Shown here in pieces: positions 8,291 to 42,974 of a DNA stretch of 64,000 bases. The DNA lies in assembly GCF_003569785.1 (NCBI RefSeq), contig NZ_KZ983993.1, forward strand, positions 62,001-126,000, in the 5' to 3' direction. The position numbers were made by a program, and so were the translations under genes. The stretch's first letter is position 1. Every line of letters starts with the position of its first letter. Origin of the DNA: Leucobacter sp. wl10 (lineage in GTDB: Bacteria; Actinomycetota; Actinomycetes; Actinomycetales; Microbacteriaceae). The notes beneath the pieces are model-generated. The model was not told the origin of the DNA. It searched no databases and was given only the letters and a program-made list of their open reading frames with translations.

Positions 8291-9321
8291 GCGGCCGGAT
8301 CCTGCCCCGCCCCGTCGTGCCCGACCCGCTGTCGGTCCCCTCGCTGCGCTGGGCGATCCTCGGCACCGGCTGGATCGCCGCCCGCTTCGTCGAGGCGCTG
8401 CAGCAGCACACCGCGCAGCGCGTCGTCGCGGTCGGATCCCGCACCGCCGCCCGAGCAGCGGAGTTCGCCGCGCAGCACGGAATCGAGCTGGCGTACGGGT
8501 CGTACGAGGAGCTCGTCGCCTCCGACGTCGATGCGGTCTACGTCGCCACCGGCCACCTCGACCACTTCGCGCACGCGACGCTCGCGCTCGAGGCCGGCAG
8601 GCCGGTGCTCATAGAGAAGCCGATGACGCCGAGGCTCTCCGAGGCGCGCGCGCTCGCCGACCTGGCGCGCGCGAGGGGGGTCTTCGCGATGGAGGCCGTG
8701 TGGTCGCTGGCGCTGCCCCGCTACTCGGTGGTGCGGCAGGTGCTCCAGCAGGGGCTGCTGGGCGAGGTCGTCGAGGTGCACGCGAACCTCGGCGAGCGGC
8801 TGGTGGATCACCACCGCGCCATGGACCCGGTGCAGGGCGGCGGCGCGATGAACGACATCGGCACCTACGCGATGATGTTCGCGAACGAGGTGCTGCCGGG
8901 CCTGCGGGTGCTCGCGGCGCACGGGCAGCGCCACGCGGCGCGCGGGGCGGTCGGCCAGTTCCACGCGCTGCTGGGCGACGGCGCGGGTCGTCAGGCCACC
9001 GTCAGCGCCTCGATGCTCGCGGACACGCCCTCCACCGCGTACGTGGCGGGCACGGAGGCGACGCTCTCGCTCGACGCGCCGTTCTACCAGCCCGGGCCGG
9101 TCGTGGTGCGCTTCCACGACGGCGAGCGGCTGCGCTACGAGGAACCCGCGCTCGCACACACGCAGCTCTTCTGGGAGGCGCTCGAGGTCGCCCGCTGCGT
9201 CGAGGCCGGGCTCGCGGAGTCGCCGCTGCGCACGCTCGACCAGACGCTCGCGACGATCTCGCTCATGGAGCAGGCCAGGGAGCTGATGGGGGATCCGGCT
9301 TCCGCCTCGAACGCACGCTGA
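8287..9321 (+). CDS. Gfo/Idh/MocA-family oxidoreductase
   Basis: This 344-residue dehydrogenase is coupled to the preceding gene by an ATGA overlap. It has WAILGTGWIAARF (Rossmann), IEKPMTPRL (catalytic Lys) and MEAVWSLALPRY, as in the trans-dihydrodiol dehydrogenase-like branch, plus the NDIGTYAMMF helix. It is the fourth family member within 7.5 kb; the divergence between copies argues for different substrates rather than a recent duplication. The 136-base gap to the convergent amidase shows no clear terminator. Confidence 0.85.
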   Translation: MSGRILPRPVVPDPLSVPSLRWAILGTGWIAARFVEALQQHTAQRVVAVGSRTAARAAEFAAQHGIELAYGSYEELVASDVDAVYVATGHLDHFAHATLALEAGRPVLIEKPMTPRLSEARALADLARARGVFAMEAVWSLALPRYSVVRQVLQQGLLGEVVEVHANLGERLVDHHRAMDPVQGGGAMNDIGTYAMMFANEVLPGLRVLAAHGQRHAARGAVGQFHALLGDGAGRQATVSASMLADTPSTAYVAGTEATLSLDAPFYQPGPVVVRFHDGERLRYEEPALAHTQLFWEALEVARCVEAGLAESPLRTLDQTLATISLMEQARELMGDPASASNAR

Positions 9322-9457
9322 GGCATTCGGCCCCGCCCCCGTTCCGCTCGCGCTGTGCTCTGCTTCGCCTCCGGCCCCCGTCCCCGCCCCGCGCCCCTCC
9401 CTTGCCGGGGTCCTGTTCGCGTGAGCGCAGGCCTTCCGTGCGGGAGCGGGTGCGGCG

Positions 9458-10855
9458 TCAGACGGTCGTGAGCTGTGCGGCGAGCTGCAGCAGCTGCGCC
9501 TCCGATCCCGGCCTCCCGATCAGCTGAGCGCCCATCGGGAGCGAGCCCGGGGCGGAGGGATTCGGCACCTCGAGGATCGGCACCGCGACCGCGGGCAGGC
9601 CCGAGACGTTGACCATCGACGTGAACGGCGTCCATTCGCACTGCGCCCGGTAGTCGTCGTCGGGCGCGAGCTTCAGAAACGCGCCGACGCGCGGCGGCAG
9701 CGCCGCGAGCCCCGGTGTGAGCACCGCGTCGTAGGCGCCCCACTGCCGGCGCAGCTCGGCCGCGATCTCCTGCAGGGCCGCCGCCGCCTCGAGGTGCGCC
9801 GGGCGCGGCCGGGCCAGCGCGCGCTCCCGGAACACCCGGGTGTACGGGATCAGCCGATCCTCGTGGCCCTCCGGCAGCTCCAGCAGCGAGAGGTTCGCCA
9901 TCCATCCGATGCGGAAGGCCTCGGGGTAGCGGGGGTCGTAGCGCAGGTCCGCCTCCTCGACGAGGTGTCCGCGATCCGACAGTCTCTCGGCCGCGAGTCG
10001 CCAGGCGAGCCGCGCCTCGGGCGAGAGCGGCACGGGGTGCGCGGCCTCGAACGGCGAGGCCGCGCTGATCCCGATCCGCAGCGCGCTCAGGGCGTCGGCC
10101 TCGCGCACCGCGCGGAGCGTGGTCTCGGGGCCGCCCCGCATCGCGTCGAAGAGCACGGCCGCGTCCTCGGCGCCGCGGGCGATGGGGCCCGAGGTCGTGA
10201 GCCGCGGGGCCCCGAAGTCGTCGACCGGCCCATCCTCCAGATCGGTGGGCACGGCGCCGAGGCCGGGCTTCAGGCCTATGAGCCCGCAGGCGAGGCTCGG
10301 GATCCTGATCGACCCGCCCCCGTCGCTGCCGGGGGCGACCGGAAGCAGCCCCGCGGCTACCGCGGCCGCGCTGCCCCCGGACGATCCGCCCGGCGTGCGC
10401 TCGGGGTCGAGGGGGTTGCGGGCGGGGGGTGCGATGAGGTTCTCGGAGTAGGCGTTGAGGCCCAGCTCGGGCACCTGGGTCTTGCCGAGCGAGATGGAGC
10501 CGGCCGCGCGCAGCACCGCCACGCCGGGCCCGTCCTGCTCGGCGATCGGGTGCGGTAGGGCGGCGCTGCCCAGGGTGGTGGGCGCCCCGGCGACGTCGAC
10601 GAGGTCCTTGTGCGCGAGGGGCAGGCCGTGCAGCGGGGGGAGCCCGGCCCGTTCTTCGGGGGCGAGCGCCGCGAAGCGGGCGTCGGCCGCGTCGGCCTCG
10701 GCCAGCGCGAGCTCGGCCGTCACCGCGATGAAGGCCCCGAGGTCTTCGCGCTCGGCGATCCGCCTCAGGAAGTGCGTCGCGGCCTCGCGCGCCGACACCT
10801 CGCCGGTGCGCAGGGCGTCGCGCAGTTCGAGCGCGGTCTCGGGGAATCTGCTCAT
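9458..10855 (-). CDS. amidase (amidase-signature family)
   Basis: This 465-residue hydrolase has the Ser-cisSer-Lys triad regions: Lys in GLPLAHKDL (about 79-87), cis-Ser in TPGGSSGGSAAAVAAG (about 152-167) and the nucleophile in GSDGGGSIRIP (about 176-186). It would hydrolyse an amide to acid and ammonia; GatA is less likely because no gatC or gatB is nearby. The start is ATG 10855 with a weak ribosome site. It is divergent from the zinc-transport operon, with about 160 bp between them. Confidence 0.88.
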   Translation of the reverse strand: MSRFPETALELRDALRTGEVSAREAATHFLRRIAEREDLGAFIAVTAELALAEADAADARFAALAPEERAGLPPLHGLPLAHKDLVDVAGAPTTLGSAALPHPIAEQDGPGVAVLRAAGSISLGKTQVPELGLNAYSENLIAPPARNPLDPERTPGGSSGGSAAAVAAGLLPVAPGSDGGGSIRIPSLACGLIGLKPGLGAVPTDLEDGPVDDFGAPRLTTSGPIARGAEDAAVLFDAMRGGPETTLRAVREADALSALRIGISAASPFEAAHPVPLSPEARLAWRLAAERLSDRGHLVEEADLRYDPRYPEAFRIGWMANLSLLELPEGHEDRLIPYTRVFRERALARPRPAHLEAAAALQEIAAELRRQWGAYDAVLTPGLAALPPRVGAFLKLAPDDDYRAQCEWTPFTSMVNVSGLPAVAVPILEVPNPSAPGSLPMGAQLIGRPGSEAQLLQLAAQLTTV

Positions 10856-11996: not shown

Positions 11997-12772
11997 TGCG
12001 CGCATCGTCCGGCGCTCGCGACGACGCCCTCTCGCTGAGCGGCGCCGCGTTCGGCTACGGCGGGAGGACCCGGGTGGAGGGGCTCACCCTCGAGGTGCCC
12101 GAGGGCTCGGCCGTCGCGCTCGTCGGCCCGAACGGATCGGGCAAGTCGACCCTGCTGCGGGGCATCCTGGGGCTCGCGGATCTCACGGCGGGAGGCGCCC
12201 GGGTGCTCGGCGAGGCCCCGGGTCGCGCCCGGCCCCGCATCGGCTCGCTGCCGCAGGCCGACACGCGCGACGCCGCTCTGCCGGTGACGCTGCGGCAGGT
12301 CGTCACGATGGGGCTCTACCGCTCCCGCGGGGCGCTGCGCCCGATCGGCCGCGCGGGCCGCGCCGCGGTCGCGGGGTCGCTCGAGCGCGTCGGCCTGGCC
12401 GAGCTCGCCGGGCGCCGCTTCGGCGAGCTCTCGGGCGGCCAGCAGCAGCGCGGCATCCTGGCCCGGGCGCTCGTCTCGGGCCCCCGGATGCTGCTGCTCG
12501 ACGAGCCGTTCAACGGACTCGACGGCGAGAACCGCGAAGCGCTGCTGCGGCTCGTGCGCGAGCTGCGCGACGAGGGGCGCACGGTCGTCGTGTCGACGCA
12601 CGACCCCGAGATCTCGCGGCGGGTCTGCACCCACGCGCTGCGGCTCCGCTCCGGGCGTCGCCCGGGCGAGCCCGGCCGCCCGGCGGCGTTCGGGCCGCTC
12701 GCCGAGGCGCTCGCGCTCGGGGGCACGGTCCCGGAGCCGCGCACCACCGCCACCGTGCGGGAGGCTGAGTAG
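11993..12772 (+). CDS. metal ABC transporter ATP-binding protein (ZnuC-like)
   Basis: This 259-residue ABC ATPase has Walker A GPNGSGKST (about 45-53), the Q-loop in GSLPQADTR, signature LSGGQQQRG (about 145-153), Walker B MLLLDEPFNGLD and switch VSTHD. It starts inside the binding-protein stop (ATGATG overlap) and shares one base with the permease start. It powers uptake of zinc or manganese across the cytoplasmic membrane. Confidence 0.9.
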   Translation: MMRASSGARDDALSLSGAAFGYGGRTRVEGLTLEVPEGSAVALVGPNGSGKSTLLRGILGLADLTAGGARVLGEAPGRARPRIGSLPQADTRDAALPVTLRQVVTMGLYRSRGALRPIGRAGRAAVAGSLERVGLAELAGRRFGELSGGQQQRGILARALVSGPRMLLLDEPFNGLDGENREALLRLVRELRDEGRTVVVSTHDPEISRRVCTHALRLRSGRRPGEPGRPAAFGPLAEALALGGTVPEPRTTATVREAE

Positions 12773-13659
12773 TGGAGGCGACCCTCGACGCCTTCTCGCT
12801 CCCCTTCATGTGGCGCGCGCTGCTGACGGTCGCGGTGCTCGCGATCGCCGGGGGCGTGGTGGGCCTCTTCATCGGACTCCGCGAGCTCGAGTTCGTGAGC
12901 GACGCCCTCGTGCACGCCGTGTTCCCGGGGCTCGTCGTGGGCGCCGCGCTGGGCGGCACGGCGGGGTTGCTCCCCGGCGCGGCGATCGCGGCCGCGCTGG
13001 CGGCGTCGCTGTTCGCGACGATCGGGCGCAGGGGCGACGCCGACGCCGCCATAGCGGTGGTGCTGACGGGCCTGTTCAGCCTGGGCGTCGTGCTGGTCTC
13101 GCGCCGGGAGGGCTACGTCTCGCAGTTGCAGGAGCTGCTCTTCGGGCGTCTGCTCACGGTCACTCCGTCGCAGCTGCGGCAGATCGCCGTCGTCGCGGTC
13201 GTCGCGATCCTCCTCGTCGCGCTGACGCGGCGCGCCCAGCTCTTCAGGGCCTTCGACGCAGCCGGCGCGGAGGCCGCCGGCTTCCGCCCGCTCGGCACCG
13301 ACCTGACGCTCGGCGCAGCGGTCGCGCTGCTCGTGGTGGCGGGCGTGCAGGCGCTCGGCGTGCTCATGGTCGTCGCGCTGCTGACCGTGCCCATGGCCGC
13401 GTCCCGGCTGCTCACCCGCGGCTTCGCGCTGCTGATCCCGATCGCGATCCTGCTGCCGCTCGTGGCGGGTGCGCTGGGGCTGTGGCTCGCGTTCGAGTGG
13501 TCGGTCGGATCGGGGGCGCCCGTCTCGCCCGGCGCCGTGGTCGTGCTGCTGCTCGTGGGGCTCTACCTGCTCGCGGCGCTCGCGCGCGCGATCGTGAGCC
13601 GAGCGACGATCGCGGATCCGCAGGCGGAGGCCGACCGCATCGCGGGGGGCCGATCGTGA
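12772..13659 (+). CDS. metal ABC transporter permease 1 (ABC-3 family)
   Basis: This 295-residue integral membrane protein has about eight hydrophobic segments. It starts with GTG at 12772, sharing one base with the preceding stop. It carries ABC-3 features: GLRELEFVSDALVHAVFPGLVVG near residue 40 and a conserved GALGLWLAFEWSVGSGAPVSPGAVVVLLL end. It would pair with the next permease to form the channel; two different permeases in one metal importer are common in actinobacteria. Confidence 0.87.
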   Translation: MEATLDAFSLPFMWRALLTVAVLAIAGGVVGLFIGLRELEFVSDALVHAVFPGLVVGAALGGTAGLLPGAAIAAALAASLFATIGRRGDADAAIAVVLTGLFSLGVVLVSRREGYVSQLQELLFGRLLTVTPSQLRQIAVVAVVAILLVALTRRAQLFRAFDAAGAEAAGFRPLGTDLTLGAAVALLVVAGVQALGVLMVVALLTVPMAASRLLTRGFALLIPIAILLPLVAGALGLWLAFEWSVGSGAPVSPGAVVVLLLVGLYLLAALARAIVSRATIADPQAEADRIAGGRS

Positions 13660-14477
13660 GCGGCCTCGCGACGCTCGAGCTCACGCTGCTCGGCCTGCTC
13701 TCGGGGCTTGCGGGCGCGCTCATCGTGCTGCGCCGCCGCTCGTTCTTCGCGGTCGCGCTGAGCCACGCCACCTTCCCCGGCGGCGTCGTGTTCGCGGTCG
13801 CGGGCTGGAACCTGCTGCTCGGCCAGGCGCTCTTCGCGGTGCTGCTCGTGCTCGCGATGACGCTGCTGGGCCGTATCCCGGGGCAGGGGCGGCAGGTGAC
13901 GAGCGGTGTCGTGCTCTCGTTCGGCTTCGCGCTCGGCTCGCTGCTCGCGAGCCTCAACCCCGCACTGGGCGTGCCGGTTGAGGCCCTGCTGGTCGGGTCG
14001 CTGCTCGGCGTGGGCGCCGGCGACGTCGCGGCCACGGGAGGCGTGCTGATCGCCTCGCTCGCGATCCTCGCGCTGTCGTGGCGCCGGATCCTGTTCCACG
14101 CCTTCGACCCCGCGGGCTTCGCGGCCGCGGGGTTCCGCGCGTGGCCCGTCGAACTCGTGACGGCCGCGGTGACCGCCGCGGCCGTGGTGGTGTCGATGCC
14201 CGCGGTCGGGGCGATCCTCGGCGTGGCGATGCTGATCGGCCCGGCGGCGACGGCGCGGGTGCTCGTGTCTCGGCTCGAGTGGGTGCCACCGCTCTCGGCG
14301 GCGCTCGGGATCGCGGGGGGCCTGGCGGGGATGCGGATCTCGCGCGAGTTCGGCATCGCGGCCGGCGGTTCGGTCGGGCTCGTGATCACCGGCGTGTTCC
14401 TGCTGGCGTTCGTCGCGCGGGCATGGGCGCGCCGAACCCGGCGACCGTGCGCCCGGAACTTCGCTACGGTGGGATGA
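13656..14477 (+). CDS. metal ABC transporter permease 2 (ABC-3 family)
   Basis: This 273-residue membrane protein starts with GTG at 13656, overlapping the first permease by 4 bp. It shows ABC-3 motifs: LRRRSFFAVALSHATFPGGV (about 26-45), AFDPAGFAAAGFRAWPVEL (about 150) and GAILGVAMLIGPAATARVL. It is a paralogue of the preceding gene. The tail (RAWARRTRRPCARN) is basic, consistent with a cytoplasmic C-terminus. Confidence 0.87.
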   Translation: MSGLATLELTLLGLLSGLAGALIVLRRRSFFAVALSHATFPGGVVFAVAGWNLLLGQALFAVLLVLAMTLLGRIPGQGRQVTSGVVLSFGFALGSLLASLNPALGVPVEALLVGSLLGVGAGDVAATGGVLIASLAILALSWRRILFHAFDPAGFAAAGFRAWPVELVTAAVTAAAVVVSMPAVGAILGVAMLIGPAATARVLVSRLEWVPPLSAALGIAGGLAGMRISREFGIAAGGSVGLVITGVFLLAFVARAWARRTRRPCARNFATVG

Positions 14478-14493
14478 GGATCGGAGGTGCTCG

Positions 14494-14931
14494 ATGCAGC
14501 CGAAGCGGAACACGTGGCAGCGCGAGGCGGTGCGGGCGGCGCTCGCCGAGCGCCGGGGGTTCGTGAGCGCTCAGCAACTGCACCGCGACCTGCGCGACGG
14601 CGGGTCGACCATCGGCCTGGCCACGGTCTATCGCGCGCTGGCCGGTCTCGCCGAATCGGGCGAGGCCGATTCGCTGCAGTCGCCCGAGGGCGAGAACCTG
14701 TTCCGCTCCTGCGCCGCTCCCGGCCACCACCACCACCTGGTCTGCCGCGGCTGCGGCGACACCCGCGAGCTCGCGGCCTCGGTCGTGGAGGAGTGGACGA
14801 GGAGGGTGGGAGAGGAGCACGGCTTCACCGATATCGAGCACGTGGTCGACCTGTTCGGCCTCTGCGAGCGCTGCCGGAGCGAGCGCCCGCCCGAAGAGAC
14901 GCGCTTCGCCCACAGGGGCGGCGCAAGGTGA
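14494..14931 (+). CDS. zur: Fur-family metalloregulator, probably Zur
   Basis: This 145-residue protein has the Fur winged helix (NTWQREAVRAAL, FVSAQQLHRDL, GLATVYRALAGLAE), the metal/dimer segment APGHHHHLVCRGCGD and two structural zinc CxxC motifs, CRGC (about 81-84) and CERC (about 127-130). Its place at the end of a znu-type operon and the Zur-like box at 10992 make zinc the likeliest signal; Mn or Fe sensing is possible. It would repress the operon when zinc is plentiful. Confidence 0.87.
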   Translation: MQPKRNTWQREAVRAALAERRGFVSAQQLHRDLRDGGSTIGLATVYRALAGLAESGEADSLQSPEGENLFRSCAAPGHHHHLVCRGCGDTRELAASVVEEWTRRVGEEHGFTDIEHVVDLFGLCERCRSERPPEETRFAHRGGAR

Positions 14932-15018
14932 CAGAACGATAACAATCGCGGGCCTCGTCGGGACAGCATCGTCCCATGCGGCGCGGTACCCGGTGGTCAG
15001 CGGCGCATTATTTACGCT

Positions 15019-15046
15019 TTGATCGGGAATTTTCACCTATTATACA
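15019..15046 (+). promoter_or_regulatory. probable promoter of the glutamate-type ABC operon
   Basis: TTGATC (15019-15024) and TATACA (15041-15046) are 16 bases apart inside a distinct AT-rich island (about 15005-15057). The transcript would begin near 15053, giving a leader of roughly 55 bases to ATG 15109. No operator palindrome was seen. The rest of the 14932-15108 gap holds nothing recognisable. Confidence 0.6.
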
Positions 15047-15108
15047 GAAAATTTGTAGGTCGCCACAAGGACTATCGCGAAGGGTGCGGGCGTGTCTACG
15101 ATCGCCGT

Positions 15109-15891
15109 ATGGCACAGGCAAAGACGACAGTGGTCAGAGTGGCCCGCGACGATCGGCAACCACTCGTCATCATCAGCGAGGTGAACAAGCACTACGGCGA
15201 GCTGCACGTGCTGAACGACATCAACACTCAGGTGGGTCGCGGCGAGGTGGTGGTGGTGCTCGGCCCGTCGGGCTCGGGCAAGTCGACCCTCTGCCGCGCC
15301 ATCAACCGGCTCGAGACCATCGACTCCGGCACGATCACCATCGACGGCCAACCGCTGCCCGAGGAGGGCAAGGAACTCGCGAAGCTCCGCGCCGACGTCG
15401 GCATGGTGTTCCAGGCCTTCAACCTCTTCGCGCACAAGACGATCCTCGAGAACGTGACGCTCGGTCCCGTCAAGGTGCGCGGCATGAGCCGGAAGGCCGC
15501 CGAGGAGAAGGCGATGGCGCTGCTCGACCGCGTCGGCATCGCGGATCAGGCGAAGAAGCTCCCGTCGCAGCTCTCGGGCGGCCAGCAGCAGCGCGTCGCC
15601 ATCGCGCGCTCCCTCGCCATGGATCCGAAGCTGATCCTGCTCGATGAGCCGACGAGCGCGCTCGATCCGGAGATGATCAACGAGGTGCTCGACGTCATGA
15701 TCGCTCTCGCGAACGACGGCATGACCATGGTCGTGGTGACGCACGAGATGGGATTCGCGCGCCGGGCCGCCGATCGCATCGTCTTCATGTCCGACGGGCA
15801 GATCGTGGAGGAGGCGACACCCGAGCAGTTCTTCACCGATCCCCAGACCTCCAGAGCCAAGGACTTCCTCTCGAAGATCCTGGGTCACTGA
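15109..15891 (+). CDS. gluA: glutamate-type amino acid ABC transporter ATP-binding protein
   Basis: This 260-residue polar-amino-acid ABC ATPase has Walker [11 protein letters not shown]-loop VFQAFNLFAHKT, signature LSGGQQQRV, Walker [13 protein letters not shown] and switch [10 protein letters not shown]. The N-terminal 15 residues are non-conserved. ATG 15109 is preferred, since upstream in-frame starts lie in the promoter island. Gene order (ATPase, binding protein, two permeases) is that of actinobacterial gluABCD. It drives uptake of glutamate or a related amino acid. Confidence 0.88.
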   Translation: MAQAKTTVVRVARDDRQPLVIISEVNKHYGELHVLNDINTQVGRGEVVVVLGPSGSGKSTLCRAINRLETIDSGTITIDGQPLPEEGKELAKLRADVGMVFQAFNLFAHKTILENVTLGPVKVRGMSRKAAEEKAMALLDRVGIADQAKKLPSQLSGGQQQRVAIARSLAMDPKLILLDEPTSALDPEMINEVLDVMIALANDGMTMVVVTHEMGFARRAADRIVFMSDGQIVEEATPEQFFTDPQTSRAKDFLSKILGH

Positions 15892-34281: not shown

Positions 34282-36317
34282 GCCTGTCGCTCGTACGCCG
34301 CACCGGAGCGCGGCCCGTGCACTGGACCACGATCTTCGGCCTGATGCTCGTGCCGCTCACGGTGGCGGGCGTGCTGCTCTGGGGCCTCTGGAACCCCACC
34401 GAACGACTCGGCACCGTCACCGCCGCCGTCGTCAACAACGACGAGCCGGTCGAGATCGACGGGCAGCCCACGCCGCTCGGGCGGGTGCTCGCGGGCGAGC
34501 TGATCGGCGGCGCGTCGTCCGAGGCCGGCGGCGCGAACTTCACGTGGGTGCTCACCGACGCCGCCGACGCCAAGTCGGGTCTCGACGACGGCCGGTACAC
34601 CACGGTCGTGACGATCCCCGAGAACTTCTCGGCCGCAGCGACCTCGCTCTCGAACGGACCGGACAAGGCCGAGACCGCGCGCATCGACATCGCGGAGAGC
34701 GACCGCGGACGCCTCATCGACACGGCGCTGTCGAGCATCGTCACCCAGACCGCGACCGGCGTGCTCAACCGGCAGCTCGGCGCGCAGTTCGTGGGCAGCG
34801 TGTTCGTGGGCATGAGCGAGCTGAGCGGCGGGATCAGCGACGCCGCCGACGGCGCCACGGCGCTGGCCGATGGCGGCGCGCAGCTGGCCGACGGCGCGAC
34901 CCAGCTCGCGGACGGCACCCGCCAGCTGGCCGATGGCACCCAGCAGCTGTCGAGCGGCGCCGGCGAGCTGTCGAGCGGGGCGTCGCAGCTCTCGACGGGC
35001 GTGGGCCAGTACGTCGGCGGGGCCTCCCAGCTGGCGCAGGCCTACGCGCCGCTGGGGCAGGGAACCGTCGCCGCCGCCACCCAGCTGAAGACGACGATCG
35101 GGGCGATCGGTCGGCTGCAGGCCGAAAGCGCGGCGCCGCAGCAGCAGGTCGCTCAGGGACTCGCCGCGGTCGGCGGCGCCATGGATCCGCAGACCGGGCT
35201 GCCCGCCGACATCGCGACCCTCGTCGCGGAGTGCTACGCCTCCGGCGCCAGCGCGGAGTTCTGCGCGCAGCTGCAGTCGACGCTCGGCGCGCGCGCCGGC
35301 CAGATCGGCGACGGCCTCGTGGCGGTGCAGGGCGGCATGACGGGTCTCGCGACGGCGCAGCAGAACTTCGCCGCGACCATGCAGGGGGGCACACAGCCGG
35401 ATCCGAACGTCGATCCCGTCGCACAGCTCGACCAGCTCATCGCCGGGGCCGGGCAGTTCGGCACCGGTCTCAACGAGTTCGCGGCTCAGGGAGCGCAGCT
35501 CTCTGAGGGTGCCGCGGGCCTCGCGGGCGGCGCGTCGCAGCTCGCCACCGGCACCGCGCAGCTCGCGGCGAACACGCCGCAGCTCGCCGACGGCGCCGCC
35601 CAGCTCGCCGACGGCGCGGGCAAGTCGGCCGACGGCGCGGGCGCGCTCGCGACTGGCCTGGGCGAGGCCGCGAGTGGAATCCCGGACTACACCGAGGCCC
35701 AGCGCAAGAAGCTCGCCGACATCGCGGTCGCCCCGGTCGAGGCTCGAGGCGGTGGCGACGAGCTGTTCAACGCCTCGGGTGTGCCGCTGTTCGCCGGGAT
35801 CGCGCTGTGGGCGGGCGCGCTCGCGTCGTTCCTCGTGCTCGCGCCGCTGTGGCGCCGCACGCGCGAGGCGGCCCGCGGCGTGGGGTGGATCGCGCTGCGC
35901 AGCGCGGCGCCGGCGGCGGCGCTCGGCGCGGTGCAGGGGGCGATCGCCGGCGTCGTGCTGCCGATCGCGCTCGGCTACGAGCTGGGTCGCGGGGCGGCGT
36001 TCTTCGGACTGGCCCTGCTGGCCGGTGTCGCGTTCGCGCTCGTGGTGCAGGGGCTCTCGGCGCTGCTCGGTGGGTTCGGGCGCTTCGTCGCGTTCGCTCT
36101 GCTGGTGGTCGCGTTCGCGGTCGGGATCGTCTCGACCGTGCCCGGCCCGCTCGCCGCCGTGGGCGACGCGAGCCCCGTCGGCTCGGCGCTCAGGGGTTTC
36201 CAGGCGATCGCCACCGAGGCCTCCGGTGCGGGCGTCGCGGCGCTGCTGCTGGCACTGTGGGGCCTCGGAGGCCTCGTGCTCACGGCTCTCGCGGTGCGAA
36301 GGGCGCGAAAGGCTTAG
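34278..36317 (+). CDS. YhgE/Pip-family membrane protein with heptad-repeat ectodomain
   Basis: This 679-residue protein has an N-terminal TM (IFGLMLVPLTVAGVLLWGLW), then a large outside domain. The domain contains many 7-residue repeats of the form GAxQLAD/GAxQLSx (about 195-240 and again 410-460) that would make long helices. A C-terminal ABC-2-like five-helix membrane domain follows. The YhgE/Pip family includes phage-receptor (Lactococcus Pip) and export-accessory proteins. Coupling to MmpL suggests a joint export complex. The stop codon lies inside the first 61-bp repeat. Confidence 0.87.
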   Translation: MSLSLVRRTGARPVHWTTIFGLMLVPLTVAGVLLWGLWNPTERLGTVTAAVVNNDEPVEIDGQPTPLGRVLAGELIGGASSEAGGANFTWVLTDAADAKSGLDDGRYTTVVTIPENFSAAATSLSNGPDKAETARIDIAESDRGRLIDTALSSIVTQTATGVLNRQLGAQFVGSVFVGMSELSGGISDAADGATALADGGAQLADGATQLADGTRQLADGTQQLSSGAGELSSGASQLSTGVGQYVGGASQLAQAYAPLGQGTVAAATQLKTTIGAIGRLQAESAAPQQQVAQGLAAVGGAMDPQTGLPADIATLVAECYASGASAEFCAQLQSTLGARAGQIGDGLVAVQGGMTGLATAQQNFAATMQGGTQPDPNVDPVAQLDQLIAGAGQFGTGLNEFAAQGAQLSEGAAGLAGGASQLATGTAQLAANTPQLADGAAQLADGAGKSADGAGALATGLGEAASGIPDYTEAQRKKLADIAVAPVEARGGGDELFNASGVPLFAGIALWAGALASFLVLAPLWRRTREAARGVGWIALRSAAPAAALGAVQGAIAGVVLPIALGYELGRGAAFFGLALLAGVAFALVVQGLSALLGGFGRFVAFALLVVAFAVGIVSTVPGPLAAVGDASPVGSALRGFQAIATEASGAGVAALLLALWGLGGLVLTALAVRRARKA

Positions 36318-36499
36318 GGGAAAACGCGTAGCGTTTTCCCGCCTTTCGCGCCGACGCCACCGCGTCGGAAAGGCTTAGGGGAAAACGCGTAGCGTTTTCC
36401 CGCCTTTCGCGCCGACGCCACCGCGTCGGAAAGGCTTAGGGGAAAACGCGTAGCGTTTTCCCGCTTTTCGCGCCGACGCCACCGCGTCGGAAAGGCTTA
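36308..36499. repeat. three tandem 61-bp hairpin units (plus a 9-bp fourth)
   Basis: Units run 36308-36368, 36369-36429 and 36430-36490; the fourth begins AAAGGCTTA at 36491 and stops. Copies are nearly identical (one C/T change in unit 3). Each holds a perfect stem GGGAAAACGC-GTA-GCGTTTTCCC (first copy 36318-36340), an outer pairing of CGAAAGGC with GCCTTTCG in the first copy, and GACGC-CACC-GCGTC. The first copy contains the stop codon of the YhgE-like gene. The structure looks like a terminator that has been amplified in tandem. Confidence 0.9.
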
Positions 36500-36529
36500 A
36501 ACGCCTCGCGTTCTCCATCCCCGGGGACC

Positions 36530-36581
36530 GGAGTCCCGAATGGTTGCCGCGATACCGCATGAAGCAGCCATTCGAGACTCC
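36530..36581. repeat. 18-bp-arm inverted repeat before the AAA+ gene
   Basis: Bases 36530-36547 pair with 36564-36581 (16 of 18 positions; one of the two mismatches would be a G-U pair in RNA), with a 16-base loop. It is 83 bases upstream of the AAA+ ATPase start. It could be an attenuator, an end of the preceding terminator region, or a small mobile palindrome. The rest of the gap to 36664 shows only an AGGGGAGAG ribosome site. Confidence 0.7.
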
Positions 36582-36664
36582 CGCTTTCGGGGGATCCCGA
36601 GGGTATGCTCACCCGGAGGCTGACAGAATCGAAATGGTTCGGTCTCGGCTGAGGGGAGAGCAGG

Positions 36665-37876
36665 ATGACACAGGGCGACGATTTCCTTGAGGTGATCGAG
36701 GCCGAGGTGGTTCGGGATCCGCAGAACCCGGCGCTGCGGGAGGACTTCATCACGCTGCTGCTGCAGAGCGATCTCGACCGCGCGGCGCACGAGGTGGCGG
36801 CGTTCGAGGCGCACGGCGGCGATCCTGATCGCGCCCGCGTGCTGCGGGCGCGCGTGATGGCGGCCCGGATGCGCGGCGGGGCGCCCGCCCCGGCGCCGTC
36901 GAAGCATCCTGCGCCCCCGGCCCCCCGCCCGGCCCCGGTCCCCGCCCCGACTGCGAGCGACTCCTCCGACGACGATGTCAGCCAGCCGGGCCTGTGGGAC
37001 GCCGAGCGCCCCTCGGTGACCCTGGCCAACGTGGCGGGCCTCGCCGAGGTCAAGCAGCACCTCGACTCGACGTTCCTCGCGCCGCTGCGCAACCCCGAGC
37101 TCGCGGCCGCCTTCGGTCAGAAGCCCGGCGGATCGCTGCTCATGTACGGCCCGCCGGGCTGCGGCAAGACGTTCCTCGCGAAGGCGATCGCGGGCGACCT
37201 CGGCGCGTCCTTCATCCACGTCACACTCGCCGATCTGCTGAGCAAGTGGGTCGGCGACAGCGAGAAGGCCGTGCAGAGCATCTTCCGCGATGCGCGCGCG
37301 GCCGCGCCCTGCGTGATCTTCTTCGACGAGTTCGACGCCCTCGGCGGGCGCCGCAGCTCGGGCGGCGGCGGGTCGCAGGCGATGCGCATGGTGGTGACGC
37401 AGCTTCTCGAGGAGCTCGACGGCGTCACGAGCCAGAACGACGGCGTCTACTTCCTCGCAGCGACCAACCGCCCGTGGGACATCGACCCCGCCCTCAGGCG
37501 CCCGGGCCGCATCGACAAGACGGTGCTCGTGCTGCCGCCCGACGCGATCGCGCGCTCCGCGATCCTGCAGGGGGACCTCGAGGGCAAGCCCGCCCAGGAC
37601 GTCGATGTCGTCGCGGTCGCGGCGGCGACCGAGGGCTTCTCGGGCGCGGACATCGCGCAGGTGGCGAAGATCGCGCTGCAGCAGTCGATGCAGGCGTCGA
37701 TGAGCGCGGGTGCGATCGTGCCCGTGACGACCGAGGCCGTGCTCGAGGCGGCGGCCGGCATCACGCCGTCGACGACCTCGTGGTTCGACCAGGTCGCGCC
37801 CGTCATCGAGTACGGCGTCGACGACGGCACCTTCGAGCAGCTGCGCAGCTACCGCGTGAGGCACGGCATGCGATGA
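36665..37876 (+). CDS. AAA+ ATPase with TPR-like N-terminus (function unknown)
   Basis: The 403-residue protein has a short helical N-terminal region (about 5-70), a Pro/Ala linker (75-105) and one classic AAA module: Walker A GPPGCGKT (162-169), pore loop KWVG (194-197), Walker B VIFFDEFD (217-224), sensor AATNRP and arginine region RRPGRID. The aromatic pore loop and the small C-terminal helical lid resemble Vps4/katanin/Cdc48-type unfoldases, suggesting substrate threading. It overlaps by 4 bp the first of three paralogous TPR-like genes, so they probably act together. AGGGGAGAG precedes ATG. Closest experimental relatives are unknown to me. Confidence 0.85.
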   Translation: MTQGDDFLEVIEAEVVRDPQNPALREDFITLLLQSDLDRAAHEVAAFEAHGGDPDRARVLRARVMAARMRGGAPAPAPSKHPAPPAPRPAPVPAPTASDSSDDDVSQPGLWDAERPSVTLANVAGLAEVKQHLDSTFLAPLRNPELAAAFGQKPGGSLLMYGPPGCGKTFLAKAIAGDLGASFIHVTLADLLSKWVGDSEKAVQSIFRDARAAAPCVIFFDEFDALGGRRSSGGGGSQAMRMVVTQLLEELDGVTSQNDGVYFLAATNRPWDIDPALRRPGRIDKTVLVLPPDAIARSAILQGDLEGKPAQDVDVVAVAAATEGFSGADIAQVAKIALQQSMQASMSAGAIVPVTTEAVLEAAAGITPSTTSWFDQVAPVIEYGVDDGTFEQLRSYRVRHGMR

Positions 37877-39183
37877 TCAGGTGGAACCCCTTCGGGGGCG
37901 CGGGTGCTTCGGGGGGCGAGCCCGAGGACCCCGTCGAGTTCGAGCGCGCGGCCATCGAGCGCGATCGCGATCTCGCCTGGGAGCTGTTCGACGCGCAGCC
38001 GACGCATCGGCGGATCCCCGAGCTCGCGCGCAGCGTGCTCGCGCGGGAGCCGAGCTTCACCGGCATGATCATCCTGATCGCGCTGCATCACCGGGCGCGC
38101 GGCGAACTCGACGAGGCCAGGCGCCTGCTGCAGGATCTCCTGGGGCGGCAGGATCGCCAATTCCTCAGCGCGCTCAGGCTCCTGCGCGACCTCGAGTACT
38201 CCGACAAGCGGTTCGCCGAATCGCAGCGGCTCGCCGAGGCGGTGCTGCGAGAGGATCCGGAGGCGGACTGGATGGACCGCATGGTCCACGCCAGCGCCCT
38301 GGTCTTCACCGGAGGCCGCGAGGCGGGGTGGGAGCGGATGGACGCGGCGGTGGAGCTGAGCGCCCGCACCGACCCCGAGCACCACGCGAGTGCGCTCGCG
38401 CAGCGGGCCGCGCGCTTCCTGCAGATGGGGGCGCCGCCTGACCGCTTCCTCCCGGCGGCGGAGGAGGCGATCGCCGCGAATCCCGTCGAGCCGGTGCTGT
38501 CGATCGCGCTCGCGTACGCGTACCTGTTCCACTACCGCGCGGAGGAGGCGGAGGCGCTGTTCCGGCGCGTGCTGCGGGAGGACCCCACCGACGAGGTGGC
38601 GCAGGGCGGCATGATGATGGCTCGAGGGTTCCTGGATCCCATCGAGCGCGGCGACGCCACGATGGAGGTGTTCCGCCGCGCGGGCATGGGGGAGATGGCG
38701 TGGCGGACCATGTACGAGCAGGTGTTCGACACCGGGCTCGAGGATGCGCTCTCCGCCCTGGACAGGGTGCTGCCGCGCGCGCTCGTCCGCGTGCTGCGCG
38801 GGGGTCTCAGGAAGTCCGCGGTGCCGCAGACGCTGGGTGAGGCGACGCTGCTCGCCTGGCACGACGGGCAGGACCCGGGCACGGGCGTGGCGTGGGGGCT
38901 CGACGAGCCCTTCCGACTGATGTCGTCGCGCGAGATCGACGAGATGGAGCACGCGATCGAGCGGGATCCGGCGGCCTGGCCGCAGTGGAGCGCCGAGGAC
39001 GAGTCCTTCACCCTGATCGCCACGGACGACGCCGGCGCATACTTCTTCGAGGGCTTCGCCGGTCGGCTCTACCGCCGCTGCGCCGGGCAGGAGGATCGGG
39101 AGGTCGCCCCGAGCCTCGCCGACTGGGTGTGGGATCGCGTCGTCGCCCTCGGTGGCGAGGAGCGCCGGCCCGGGCGGGTGTGA
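37873..39183 (+). CDS. TPR-like protein with SUKH-like C-terminal domain, paralogue 1
   Basis: This 436-residue soluble acidic protein has helical TPR-like repeats at about 30-260, with landmarks RIPELARSVLAREP, GELDEARRLLQDLLG, AEAVLREDPEADWMDR, LAYAYLFHYRAEEAEALFRRVLREDP and FLDPIERG. The C-terminal domain (about 325-430: LLAWHDGQDPGTG, WPQWSAEDESFTLI, DDAGAYFFEG, EDREVAPSLADWVWDRVV) resembles SMI1/KNR4 (SUKH) folds by pattern only. It is translationally coupled to the AAA+ ATPase, hence a likely partner or adaptor. Two more copies follow in tandem. Confidence 0.75.
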   Translation: MIRWNPFGGAGASGGEPEDPVEFERAAIERDRDLAWELFDAQPTHRRIPELARSVLAREPSFTGMIILIALHHRARGELDEARRLLQDLLGRQDRQFLSALRLLRDLEYSDKRFAESQRLAEAVLREDPEADWMDRMVHASALVFTGGREAGWERMDAAVELSARTDPEHHASALAQRAARFLQMGAPPDRFLPAAEEAIAANPVEPVLSIALAYAYLFHYRAEEAEALFRRVLREDPTDEVAQGGMMMARGFLDPIERGDATMEVFRRAGMGEMAWRTMYEQVFDTGLEDALSALDRVLPRALVRVLRGGLRKSAVPQTLGEATLLAWHDGQDPGTGVAWGLDEPFRLMSSREIDEMEHAIERDPAAWPQWSAEDESFTLIATDDAGAYFFEGFAGRLYRRCAGQEDREVAPSLADWVWDRVVALGGEERRPGRV

Positions 39184-39213
39184 CGGGGCGCAAGAGGGGA
39201 AGGGGACGAGCGC

Positions 39214-40504
39214 ATGGACGAGGATCCGGAGTTCGATCGGGGCGGGTTCGATGCCGACGATCTCGAGCGCGAGGCGATCGCCAGGGATCGCGCGCTCGCG
39301 TGGGAGCTGTACGAGACCCGTCCCGAGCATCCGCGCATCGCGGAGCTCACGCGGAGCGTGCTCGCGCGGGCGCCTCAGATCACGGGCATGATCATCCTGC
39401 TCGCGCTGCACCGCCGGGCCTGCGGCGAGGTCGAGGAGGCGCGGCGCCTGCTGCGGGAGCTGGCGGGGCGGCGCGATCCCCAGTACGTCAACGCGGTCAA
39501 GAACCTGCGCGATCTGGAGTTGTCCGACAAGAAGTATGCCGAGGCCCTGCACCTGACCGAGATCGTGCTGCGGGAGGACCCGGAGGCCGACTGGACCGAG
39601 TGGATGGACTACGGCACCGCGGAGGTGTTCGTGCGGAGCCCCGAGGAAGGCTGGCGGCGGATCGACGACGCCGTCGAGATGGCCGCCCGCACCGACCCGG
39701 ACTGGTACGCCGACGCCCTCGCCCAGCGCGCCCTGCGGCTCCTCACCACGGGCGCGCCGCCGATACGCTTCCTCCCCCGCCGCGGAGCAGGCGGTCGAGG
39801 CGGATCCCACCGAGCCGACCATCACCCTGGCGCTGGCGTACGCGTACCTCTTCGACTACCGGCCCGACCGTGCCGAGGAGCTGCTCCGGCGTCTGCTGCG
39901 GGAGGATCCGACCGACAGGGGCGCCCTCGGCGGGATGACCGTCGCGCGGGGGTTCCTCGACCCGATCGAGCGCGGCGACACGACGCTCGACGCGCTCCGA
40001 GAGTTCCGCATGGGGGAGCTCGCCTGGCGGATGATGCGCGATCAGATGTTCCGCACGGGCCTCGACGAGGCGCTCGAGGCGCTCGACGCCGTGCTGCCGC
40101 ACGACCTGGCCCGCTCGTTGCGCCCGCCCCTCGGCGGAGAGGCGGCGCGGGAGAGCTACGGCGAGACGGAGCTGCTCGAGTGGCACGACGGCCAGGAGCC
40201 GGGCACGGGCGCGCTGTGGGGCTTCGACGAGCCCTTCCGGCTGATGTCGGCGGCCGAGGTCGACGAGATGGAGCACGCGATCGTTCGGGATCCGGCCGCG
40301 TGGCCGCAGTGGGACTCCGAGAACGAGTACTTCACCCTGATCGGCGCGGACGACGCGGGGGCCTACCTCTTCGTGGGGCCCGGAGGCGTGCTGCATCGCC
40401 GCTGCGCCGGGCAGGAGGACCGGGAGGTCGCCCCGAGCCTCGCCGACTGGGTGTGGGATCGCGTCGTCGCCTTCGGCGGCGAGGAACGCCGGCCGGGCCG
40501 GTAG
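39214..40504 (+). pseudogene. TPR-like protein, paralogue 2, interrupted by a +1 frameshift
   Basis: The first 189 codons (from ATG 39214) align with the neighbouring copies up to APPIRFLP. Then a run of five C (39774-39778), where the other copies fit four bases, shifts the frame. The correct continuation, EQAVEADPTEPTITLALAYA and onward, is in the next frame and stays open to TAG 40504. It covers FLDPIERGDTT, ELLEWHDGQEPGTGALWG and EVAPSLADWVWDRVV. With one C removed the product would be about 429 residues. It is either a true recent pseudogene, a phase-variable tract or a base-calling error. Confidence 0.85.
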
Positions 40505-40541
40505 CACGGTATCCGCACGTTGGCGCAGTCCCGGCTCCCGA

Positions 40542-40583
40542 GTTCGGGGTTCGAGGTTCGGAGTTCGGAGTTCGGGGTTCGGA
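40542..40583. repeat. six-copy 7-bp microsatellite (GTTCGGR)
   Basis: Units GTTCGGG, GTTCGAG, GTTCGGA, GTTCGGA, GTTCGGG and GTTCGGA run without gaps from 40542 to 40583, in the spacer between paralogues 2 and 3. A 7-bp period is not a multiple of three, so changes in copy number would shift any frame through it. No gene seems to cross it. Confidence 0.9.
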
Positions 40584-40592
40584 GCCCCCTCA

Positions 40593-40644
40593 GCTCGACA
40601 GTAGATGCTTGAGAATTGTGAAAGAAGAGCATCTACTGCCGAGC
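40593..40644. repeat. 17-bp-arm inverted repeat between paralogues 2 and 3
   Basis: Bases 40593-40609 and 40628-40644 are reverse complements except for one position, with core CAGTAGATGCT / AGCATCTACTG perfect, around an 18-base AT-rich loop (TGAGAATTGTGAAAGAAG). It lies 51 bases before the paralogue 3 start. It may be an operator, a transcript hairpin or a small non-autonomous palindromic element; no target-site duplication was seen. Confidence 0.85.
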
Positions 40645-40694
40645 GGACAGGTGGACGTCGAGGCGGACGGGTGAATGTTGCAGGAGGGGAGCGC

Positions 40695-41954
40695 ATGAGC
40701 GCACACGACGACATCGAGCGCGCGGCGATCGAGCGGGACAGGGATCTCGCCTGGGAGCTGTACGACGTGCGGCCCGAGCACCCGCGGATCCCGGAGCTCG
40801 CGCAGAGCGTGCTCGCACGGGAGCCGACGTTCACCGGCATGATCATCCTCACGGCGCTGCACCGCGAGGCGTGCGGCGAGGTCGAGGAGGCCAGGCGCCT
40901 GCTGCAGGATCTGATGGGCCGGAGAGACCGGCAGTATCTCAACGTGCTCAAGAAGCTGCGCGACCTCGAGTTCTCGGACGAGAACTACGCCGAAGCGCTG
41001 CGCCTCGCCGAGATGGTGCTGCGTGAGCACCCCGAGGCCGACTGGATGGACCGCATGGACTACGGCAGTGCGCTGATCTTCACCGGCGATCCCGGGGGCG
41101 GGTGGCGGGTGATCGACGAGGCCGTCGAGTCGACCGCCCGGGTGGATCCCGAACAGTACGCGATGGCGCTCGGGCAGCGCGCGACGCGGCTGCTCGCCTC
41201 GGGCGCGCCGCCGGAGCGCTTCCTGCCCGCCGCGGAGGAGGCGCTCGCGGCGGATCCGAGCGACCCGATCCTCGCCACCACCCTGGCCTACGCCTATCTG
41301 TACCACTATCGCGCGGAGGAGGCTGAGGGTCTGTTCCGGCGCGTGCTGCGGGAGGACCCGACCGACGAGGTGGCGCAGGGCGGCATGATCGTCGCGCGCG
41401 CGTTCCTCGACCCCATCGAGCGCGGGGTGCGCACGATGGACGACCATCGCCGTGCCGGCACCGGGGAGATGGCGTGGCGCACGCTGCGCGACCAGATGTT
41501 CGGCACGGGACTCGTGGAGGCGCTCGTCGCGCTCGACGCCGTGATGCCGGAGGCGCTGGCGGCCTCCCTGCGCCCGCCCCTCGACCGCGAGACGGCGCGC
41601 GACTCGGGCGGCGAGTGGAGGGTGCTCGCGTGGCACGATGGGCAGGAGCCCGGCACCGGCGCGCTGTGGGGCGCGGGCGACTCCTTCCGGCTGATGACCG
41701 CGGCCGAGATCGGCGAGATGGACGAGGCGATCGAGCGGGATCGGGGGGCCTGGTCGCAGTGGGACGAGGAGGAGTACTACACGCAGATCTTCACTGACGA
41801 CGCGGGCGCGTACCTCATCGAGGGCCGGGGCGGCCGCCTGATCCGCCGGGCCCGGGGGGAGGCGGACCGGGAAGTCGCGCCGAGCCTCGCCGACCGGCTG
41901 TGGGATCGCGTGGTCGCACTCGGCGGAGAGGATCCGAGGCCGGGGCGCCCCTGA
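40695..41954 (+). CDS. TPR-like protein with SUKH-like C-terminal domain, paralogue 3
   Basis: This intact 419-residue paralogue of the proteins at 37873 and 39214 is collinear with them throughout. It has RIPELAQSVLAREPTFTGMI, EARRLLQDLMGRRDRQYL, LAYAYLYHYRAEEAEGLFRR and FLDPIERG. The C-terminal part carries VLAWHDGQEPGTGALWG, DDAGAYLIEGRGGRL and EVAPSLADRLWDRVV. The C-terminal part varies more than the helical part, which could mean different binding partners. AGGAGGGG lies 7 bases before ATG 40695. Function unknown. Confidence 0.78.
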   Translation: MSAHDDIERAAIERDRDLAWELYDVRPEHPRIPELAQSVLAREPTFTGMIILTALHREACGEVEEARRLLQDLMGRRDRQYLNVLKKLRDLEFSDENYAEALRLAEMVLREHPEADWMDRMDYGSALIFTGDPGGGWRVIDEAVESTARVDPEQYAMALGQRATRLLASGAPPERFLPAAEEALAADPSDPILATTLAYAYLYHYRAEEAEGLFRRVLREDPTDEVAQGGMIVARAFLDPIERGVRTMDDHRRAGTGEMAWRTLRDQMFGTGLVEALVALDAVMPEALAASLRPPLDRETARDSGGEWRVLAWHDGQEPGTGALWGAGDSFRLMTAAEIGEMDEAIERDRGAWSQWDEEEYYTQIFTDDAGAYLIEGRGGRLIRRARGEADREVAPSLADRLWDRVVALGGEDPRPGRP

Positions 41955-42005
41955 GCGGCTCGGGCGGGGTTCCGCGAGGCGAGACGGCGGGGCTAGGCTC
42001 GAGGC

Positions 42006-42974
42006 ATGACGATGCGCGCGATAGTTGCTGAGCAGGCCGGCGGTCCCGAGGCGCTGAGGATCGCGGAGGTTCCGGATCCCGAGGCCGGTCCGGGGGAGCT
42101 GCTCGTGCGGACCGTGGCCGTCGGCGTGAACTTCATCGAGACGTACCAGCGGTCCGGCCTCTACTCCGTGCCGTTCCCGTTCACGCCGGGTGCGGAGGGT
42201 GCCGGGCGCGTGCTCGCGGTCGGCGAGGGCGTCGAGGGCTTCGCGGTCGGCGACCTGATCGCCACGGCCGAGGCGCGCGCCACCTACGCCGAGCGCTTCG
42301 TCGTGGAGGCGGAGCGCGCGGTCGCCGTACCCGACACGATCGGCGCCGACACCGCGGCGGCGCTGCCGCTGCAGGGGCTGACCGCGCACTACCTCGCGAC
42401 CTCCGCGGCGCGACCGCAGCCGGGCGACACGGTGCTCGTGCACGCGGGCGCCGGTGGCGTCGGCCTGCTGCTCACGCAGCTGCTCGTCGCGCGCGGGGTG
42501 CGGGTGCTGACCACCGCCTCGACGCCCGAGAAGGGGGAGCTGAGCCGGGGCGCGGGCGCCGCCGAGGTGCTCGATTACGCGGGCTTCGCGGATCGCGCGC
42601 GCGAGCTCACGGACGGTGACGGCGTCGCCGTCGTCTACGACGGCGTCGGCAGGAGCACCTTCGACGACTCCCTGCGCGCCCTGCGCGTGCGAGGCGAGCT
42701 GGTGCTCTTCGGAGCGGCGAGCGGCCCCGTGCCGCCGTTCGACCTGCAGCGCCTCAACGCCGGCGGATCCCTGTCGGTCACCCGTCCCTCGCTCGGCCAC
42801 TTCCTGCGCACGCCCGAGGAGCGGGCCTGGCGCTACGGCGAACTCTTCGACGCGATCTCCGCGGGGGCGCTCGACATCCGCATCGGCGTGCGCTTTCCCC
42901 TGGCCGAGGCCGCCGCGGCGCACGCGGCGCTTGAGGGCCGGGAGACGACGGGCAAGGTGATCCTCGAGCCGTGA
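42006..42974 (+). CDS. quinone oxidoreductase (zeta-crystallin-like, MDR family)
   Basis: The 322-residue NADPH:quinone reductase has VGVNFIETYQRSGLY (substrate region), PFTPGAEGAGRV, HAGAGGVGLLLTQLL (NADPH site, about 154-168) and the C-terminal GRETTGKVIL. No zinc-ligand loop is present, as expected for the quinone branch. The start is ATG 42006 or 42012. The gene is single, with 43-82 base spacers on both sides and no operon partner. Confidence 0.9.
   Translation: MTMRAIVAEQAGGPEALRIAEVPDPEAGPGELLVRTVAVGVNFIETYQRSGLYSVPFPFTPGAEGAGRVLAVGEGVEGFAVGDLIATAEARATYAERFVVEAERAVAVPDTIGADTAAALPLQGLTAHYLATSAARPQPGDTVLVHAGAGGVGLLLTQLLVARGVRVLTTASTPEKGELSRGAGAAEVLDYAGFADRARELTDGDGVAVVYDGVGRSTFDDSLRALRVRGELVLFGAASGPVPPFDLQRLNAGGSLSVTRPSLGHFLRTPEERAWRYGELFDAISAGALDIRIGVRFPLAEAAAAHAALEGRETTGKVILEP

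Follow-up and report, generated by a model that had tools for sequence, protein, structure and literature searches.

A single-domain AAA+ ATPase co-encoded with TPR proteins that carry a probable SUKH-like domain in one actinobacterial clade

We analyzed a stretch of 64,000 nucleotides from Leucobacter sp. wl10 (contig NZ_KZ983993.1, positions 62,001 to 126,000; hereafter the window), which holds a gene module made of an AAA+ ATPase (P0001) followed by three tandem copies of a gene for a tetratricopeptide repeat (TPR) protein, the first of which encodes P0002. Our results showed that the ATPase is encoded next to a TPR protein, here called the adaptor, in most related loci, and that this partner carries predicted C-terminal transmembrane (TM) segments in most of them. 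In the window and nine other loci it is predicted to be soluble and probably ends in a SUKH-like domain. On balance, we think that the two proteins form a two-component protein-remodelling machine, composed of an unfolding or disassembly motor and a co-encoded substrate adaptor.

P0001 is a classical AAA+ ATPase of 403 amino acids (aa). It contains a single AAA domain (PF00004, 2.6e-42, 144.8 bits for a Pfam cut-off of 21.2) and a lid domain (AAA_lid_3, 9e-8), and its Walker A, Walker B and arginine-finger motifs could be located. The protein consists of a divergent helical N-terminal domain, a Pro-rich linker, a pore loop KWVG at residues 194-197, the two Walker motifs and an RRPGR motif. KWxG is the pore-loop motif of Vps4, and the pore-loop residue is aromatic in 18 of 20 aligned ATPases. 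At the N-terminus of the ATPases of two relatives that were scanned, we found TPR_19 (5.8e-7 and 1.1e-6). An initial annotation of this DNA, made from the letters alone, had described an AAA+ open reading frame (ORF) with a KWVG pore loop that overlaps a 436-aa ORF by 4 bp. All of this was borne out, the stop of the ATPase gene and the start of adaptor copy 1 sharing 4 bp.

To follow the pair in other genomes, relatives were sought with the ATPase sequence, which gave matches in 35 of 299 genomes of the window's family (E up to 1e-60) and in 10 of 396 genomes of the phylum (E up to 1e-90). The samples (299, 396, 374 and 199 genomes) were drawn from larger groups, so that all frequencies are rough, and genes were called by simple scripts. 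The resulting set comprises 46 loci (the window, L013, L055-L074, L084-L103, L037, L039, L051 and L137; a match in G033 was left out), all of which, except L013 and L137, were found by the ATPase sequence alone. A TPR gene directly adjoins the ATPase in 43 of the 46 loci, including 36 of 36 examined in the window's family. Adjacency was established by script in 36 loci, by tblastn in six (L085, L102, L103, L037, L039 and L051) and additionally in L137. The script used a TPR profile built from eight partners, which match by construction, and L102 was counted as paired with both genes interrupted. The two genes mostly overlap by 4 bp or lie within about 40 bp of each other; the TPR gene is ahead of the ATPase in L086 and present on either side of it in L087 and L092. 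The AAA+ ATPase with a co-encoded TPR protein is thus kept across genomes, and the rare co-occurrence named in the initial annotation as a refutation was not what we observed.

The association was also recovered from the other side. With the adaptor sequence we obtained strong matches in 9 of the 299 family genomes and weak ones in 2, and a profile of the SUKH-like domain strongly matched 3 of 374 genomes of the class, including that of the window and one that is not in the family (G971), with 4 weak matches. The weak profile matches (L130-L133) fall in reading frames where no gene was called and were set aside. An ATPase gene adjoins the adaptor in all ten soluble loci that these searches recovered, nine with the adaptor and one more with the SUKH-domain profile. 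A pattern scan of genome contigs with P0002 returned one relative, in Labedella.

Predicted C-terminal TM segments were present in the partner of 33 loci (2-9 segments, with one before the contig end in L085), and none were predicted in the ten loci with the SUKH-tipped form. Labedella has both a soluble (L013) and a membrane (L099) module. In a quick tree of 40 ATPases (L102, L103, L037, L039, L051 and L137 were not part of it), the nine with a soluble partner form one clade with a Shimodaira-Hasegawa-like approximate likelihood ratio (SH-aLRT) support of 99. Its sister is L062, whose partner has 4 TM segments. The character "soluble" requires one change on this tree, and the membrane tail was therefore probably swapped once for a soluble domain in this clade. 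At L137, the ATPase is 74% identical to P0001 and the adaptor 44% identical to P0002. Both genes are open in the nine other soluble loci, and the ratio of nonsynonymous to synonymous substitution rates (dN/dS) is 0.15 for L055 and L056, which are close orthologues, and 0.38-0.54 for the remaining pairs compared. In L102, stops interrupt both the ATPase and the TPR-TM partner, as in a decaying module.

The adaptors are TPR proteins. TPR_19 scores 32.0 bits in copy 1 and 38.6 bits in copy 3 for a Pfam cut-off of 25, and 12 of the 13 adaptors examined with Pfam exceed the cut-off of a TPR model; the exception, the second L058 copy, falls just short (24.1 versus 25). A model of copy 1, based on five aligned rows, is confident over residues ~20-285 and poor beyond (mean predicted local distance difference test score, pLDDT, 62). 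Foldseek placed consensus TPR proteins as its best matches (E 2e-6), in agreement with a solenoid fold.

The three copies are spaced by 1323 and 1451 nt. The three tandem paralogues proposed initially are thus present, but the middle one is broken by a one-base frameshift within a C run at 39774-39778, its two halves being otherwise open. The listed 486-aa ORF is consequently out of frame over the second half. The halves of copy 2 show pairwise dN/dS of 0.42-0.54 against copies 1 and 3, like the intact copies between them (0.46), so that the break is either recent or an assembly error; the genome is a 3.8-Mb draft in 64 contigs, and the frameshift may be an error of this draft. Position 40695, which the initial annotation had also used, is the most likely start of copy 3. 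The adaptor tree joins copy 1 to the first L058 copy (support 98/96), which places the duplication before the split of those two genomes, and copy 1 had diverged from the other adaptor type before the separation from genome G106. Soluble adaptors stand in tandem in two loci, the window and L058; membrane adaptors are duplicated in tandem in L096 and L101.

The C-terminal domain of the adaptors is probably SUKH-like, according to weak but concordant evidence from sequence and fold. It contains a WHDGQ motif and a beta-rich second half. The SUKH model on whole P0002 stays under the Pfam cut-off (E 0.075, 14.1 bits versus 25.4), as does PF09346 on the isolated domain of copy 1 (17.1 bits versus a gathering score of 25.4), and SUKH was not among the Pfam matches listed for P0004. 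SMI1_KNR4 is nevertheless the Pfam family that matches most often, in 3 of the 12 domain sequences, with a best E of 0.0085 that stays below the gathering score, and NCBIfam matched one of the 12 with one unrelated model (E 0.074). When the domain profile was compared with eleven SUKH proteins from family genomes, those of the HDGQ type scored best (E 0.013 and above). A search of PDB sequences with the profile gave no match at E up to 10. At the level of structure, Foldseek ranked 3d5p (SMI1/KNR4, E 0.10) and 3ffv (Syd, E 0.12) first among 350,542 chains for a query model of pLDDT 43, and the third match had a probability of 0.04. The same two chains came first in the VIA structure comparison (Z 4.2 and 3.5), where 2prv (YobK), 5j1b (yeast Knr4) and 2pag appear lower (Z 2.4-2.9). 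We take Syd and YobK to be members of the SUKH superfamily. The SUKH-like assignment of the initial annotation therefore draws weak but concordant support only from the isolated domain and its fold, and none from the whole protein at the Pfam cut-off; a known enzyme fold, which that annotation had considered a refutation, was not found by the fold search with this poor model.

In the machine that we propose, the ATPase would form a hexamer and thread or disassemble a protein client through its pore, as the aromatic pore residue suggests. Its N-terminal arm may dock on the TPR solenoid of the adaptor, a possibility raised by the N-terminal TPR of two relatives. The C-terminal part of the TPR protein would determine the place of action of the motor and its target: in most relatives this part would be a membrane anchor, and in the present clade the soluble SUKH-like domain may bind the client or a bridging protein. 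The motor would then be expected to reach a soluble or peripheral complex recognized by the SUKH tip. In some lineages the adaptor gene has been duplicated. Mean pairwise identity is 60% in the SUKH region and 53-59% in the TPR region. Being as conserved as the TPR region, the SUKH region is more in keeping with a constant client than with an arms race. The recognition set had initially been described as diversifying, which neither this conservation nor the age of the divergence of copy 1 from the other adaptor type supports.

We then considered the genomic site (Table 1). An ABC2-type membrane protein gene and a zinc dehydrogenase gene flank the module. These two genes are direct neighbours, with a short gap, in 5 of 6 congeners, and lie on different contigs in the sixth (G253), so that the module was probably gained at this site. 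Two of the six congeners have the membrane version elsewhere in the genome (L068 and L071), and four have no ATPase match. The G+C content of the module (0.717) equals that of the window (0.712), and composition thus shows no sign of recent import. Searches of the plasmid and phage collections by tblastn with P0002 found none that carry it. Each of the 61-bp units upstream of the module folds into strong hairpins (minimum free energy z -5.7 for one unit), and no other place in the genome matched the unit. Repeats had been said to border the locus. The hairpins indeed lie upstream, but the inverted repeat is inside the module, between copies 2 and 3, and the locus is not bordered on both sides. 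A short GTTCGG-like repeat stretch directly precedes this inverted repeat. Rfam gave nothing at gathering scores over 36000-42200, and the promoter and terminator scan was not above shuffles.

Table 1. Coordinates of the module genes and associated repeats in the window
Feature	Position	Strand	Basis or remark
AAA+ ATPase gene (P0001)	36665..37876	+	Pfam AAA match, alignment of 20 relatives, motif positions
Adaptor copy 1 (P0002, 436 aa)	37873..39183	+	TPR solenoid ~20-285, SUKH-like C-terminal domain (probable) ~300-436
Adaptor copy 2, frameshifted	39214..40504	+	Family matches each half separately
Adaptor copy 3 (419 aa), intact	40695..41954	+	Groups with single-copy adaptors of related genomes, tree support 87/89
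Three tandem 61-bp hairpin units and a partial fourth	36307..36499	.	Repeat search; end of the gene for the ABC2-type membrane protein
Inverted repeat between copies 2 and 3	40600..40637	.	

Neighbouring genes were clustered within 6 genes of the module, and the top 25 clusters found in at least 2 genera were listed. Besides the ATPase and the adaptors, no listed cluster occurs in more than 4 genera, and positions are scattered. Among about 20 neighbour proteins scanned with Pfam, the identified ones are mainly metabolic, regulatory, transport or chaperone proteins, with one transposase and one DUF222-HNH protein. One neighbour, a domain of ~130 aa without a Pfam family (c6), adjoins the soluble module in L013, is close to the module in L055-L057 and occurs in L137, from a genome outside the family, as a C-terminal fusion to the adaptor (8744-10441). 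It is present in 4 of 9 family genomes with a soluble module and in 14 of 290 others (Fisher p 0.001). Three of these four genomes belong to one genus, of which G175 and G224 have c6 without the ATPase; synteny may thus explain most of the association, and c6 was not counted as a component of the system. In G049, which has no ATPase match, an HDGQ-type SUKH gene and a gene encoding the ~130-aa c6 domain are about 1 kb apart (L126 and L147). Related 3-TM genes stand beside the soluble adaptor in L055 (11476-12012), L057 (7783-8553) and L137 (7992-8744), on the same strand as the adaptor in two of these loci and convergent in one; we regard them as no more than a lead. A Tn3-type transposase gene (12067-15138) is near the soluble module in L059.

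Several observations weigh against a motor with a SUKH-tipped adaptor. No recurring client gene was seen beside the module in the neighbour clustering, three of the 46 ATPase loci (L089-L091, from one other family) lack a TPR neighbour, and the aromatic pore residue is missing from two of the 20 ATPases (L064 and L070). The N-terminal arm of P0001 matched no TPR family in Pfam. The TM counts rest on a simple hydropathy rule, and the tree program flags L062 and other long branches in the quick ATPase tree. Concerning the SUKH-like domain, 9 of the 12 sequences have no match to any SUKH model; the domain modelled alone reaches a pLDDT of 43, the E values of both SUKH-type Foldseek matches are 0.10 and 0.12, and unrelated chains with short alignments (Z 3.1-2.9) interleave with the SUKH rows of VIA. 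A comparison of the domain with two SUKH sets by hhalign was not significant (probabilities of 0.5% and 5.9%).

A bolder form of the proposal, which we offer tentatively, is a modular unfoldase with interchangeable recognition heads. The membrane-anchored TPR adaptor would have been replaced in one actinobacterial clade, and a Cdc48/Vps4-type motor would receive selected proteins, perhaps toxins arriving from outside, by way of the SUKH tips. The TPR protein could also be the client itself. It would then form an oligomer, attached to the membrane in most relatives but soluble in this module, and the ATPase would take it apart as Vps4 does ESCRT-III. In the excerpt of PMC11237479 that we consulted, snf7 is displaced by a TPR-6TM gene in bacterial Vps4-like loci, which speaks for this alternative, as does the tight pairing of the TPR gene with the ATPase. 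We nevertheless consider it unlikely, since the C-terminal part has changed and the pairing was kept, a change that an adaptor would tolerate more readily than a polymer subunit. Moreover, TPR solenoids are usually binding platforms.

A role in immunity or defence, in which toxins or phage proteins that enter the cell are recognized by the SUKH tips and unfolded by the ATPase, appears improbable to us. The best-known role of SUKH domains is in toxin immunity, the adaptor copies are in tandem, and the module is patchy and inserted, with 9 of 299 family genomes by adaptor sequence, empty sites in congeners and the transposase near it in L059. IetA is its closest PADLOC model (114 bits). However, the IetA/IteA model of NCBIfam gives 120 bits for a cut-off of 510, the adjacent gene encodes a TPR protein and not a protease, and PADLOC, run on five module proteins and not on their neighbours, found only AAA similarity. 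No defence or toxin gene was seen among the recurring neighbour clusters listed, the identified neighbours are mainly of the metabolic, regulatory, transport and chaperone kinds, and the SUKH region is not diversified; the defensive role suggested initially thus lost ground. Least probable of all is a drifting accessory pair of little consequence whose duplicates are being lost, for which the frameshift in copy 2, the four congeners without an ATPase match and the stops in L102 would speak, but against which stand the dN/dS values, the open genes of the nine other soluble loci and the chance that the frameshift is an assembly error.

If a motor with a co-encoded adaptor is the correct reading, bacteria would possess a Cdc48/Vps4-type motor whose targets are set by an exchangeable adaptor, with a membrane tail in most cases and a SUKH domain in one lineage. 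The soluble clade, its 4-TM sister L062, Labedella with both modules, and the congeners with the other version or none are natural comparisons for finding the target of this motor.

Among known systems, the second ATPase ring of Cdc48/p97 scores highest with the AAA part in NCBIfam (210 bits for a cut-off of 802.65) and gives the best PDB sequence matches of P0001 (E ~1e-102, residues ~113-346), but the window ATPase has one AAA domain instead of two, and no Cdc48 N-domain was seen in it. IetAS has a related AAA+ domain and differs by the NCBIfam score and the IetS protease partner mentioned above. Compared with the SUKH superfamily (SMI1/KNR4, Syd, YobK), the adaptor domain shares the WHDGQ motif, the beta-rich half and the top fold matches 3d5p and 3ffv, but it is joined to a TPR solenoid, goes together with an AAA+ ATPase and stays below the Pfam gathering score. 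Vps4/CdvC (ESCRT-IV) resembles P0001 in its single AAA+ domain, its N-terminal helical arm and linker, and its KWxG pore loop. It differs in that P0001 reaches 166 bits with the NCBIfam CdvC equivalog (cut-off 650), a TPR gene occupies the place of ESCRT-III, and the scanned relatives have TPR in their N-terminal arm. Neither MIT nor Vps4_C is among the best 25 of 27 Pfam families matching P0001 at E up to 1, and beside the ATPase no non-TPR cluster recurs across genera, although no profile search for Snf7 or PspA was made.

The system had initially been presented as undescribed. We found no mention of the SUKH-tipped form, and nothing further on the pair beyond the paper cited below, in the literature searched, which covered open-licence papers only, so that it may be in print elsewhere. 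The general pair is described: the part of PMC11237479 at hand gives one sentence to a bacterial Vps4-like AAA+ protein with a TPR-6TM protein, exemplified by ACB74714.1, to which our module is likened by description only. As far as this excerpt goes, both have one classical AAA+ protein beside a TPR protein, and our membrane-anchored relatives fit that pair. The window and the nine other loci differ from it by their soluble SUKH-like adaptor, which has no multi-TM C-terminus.

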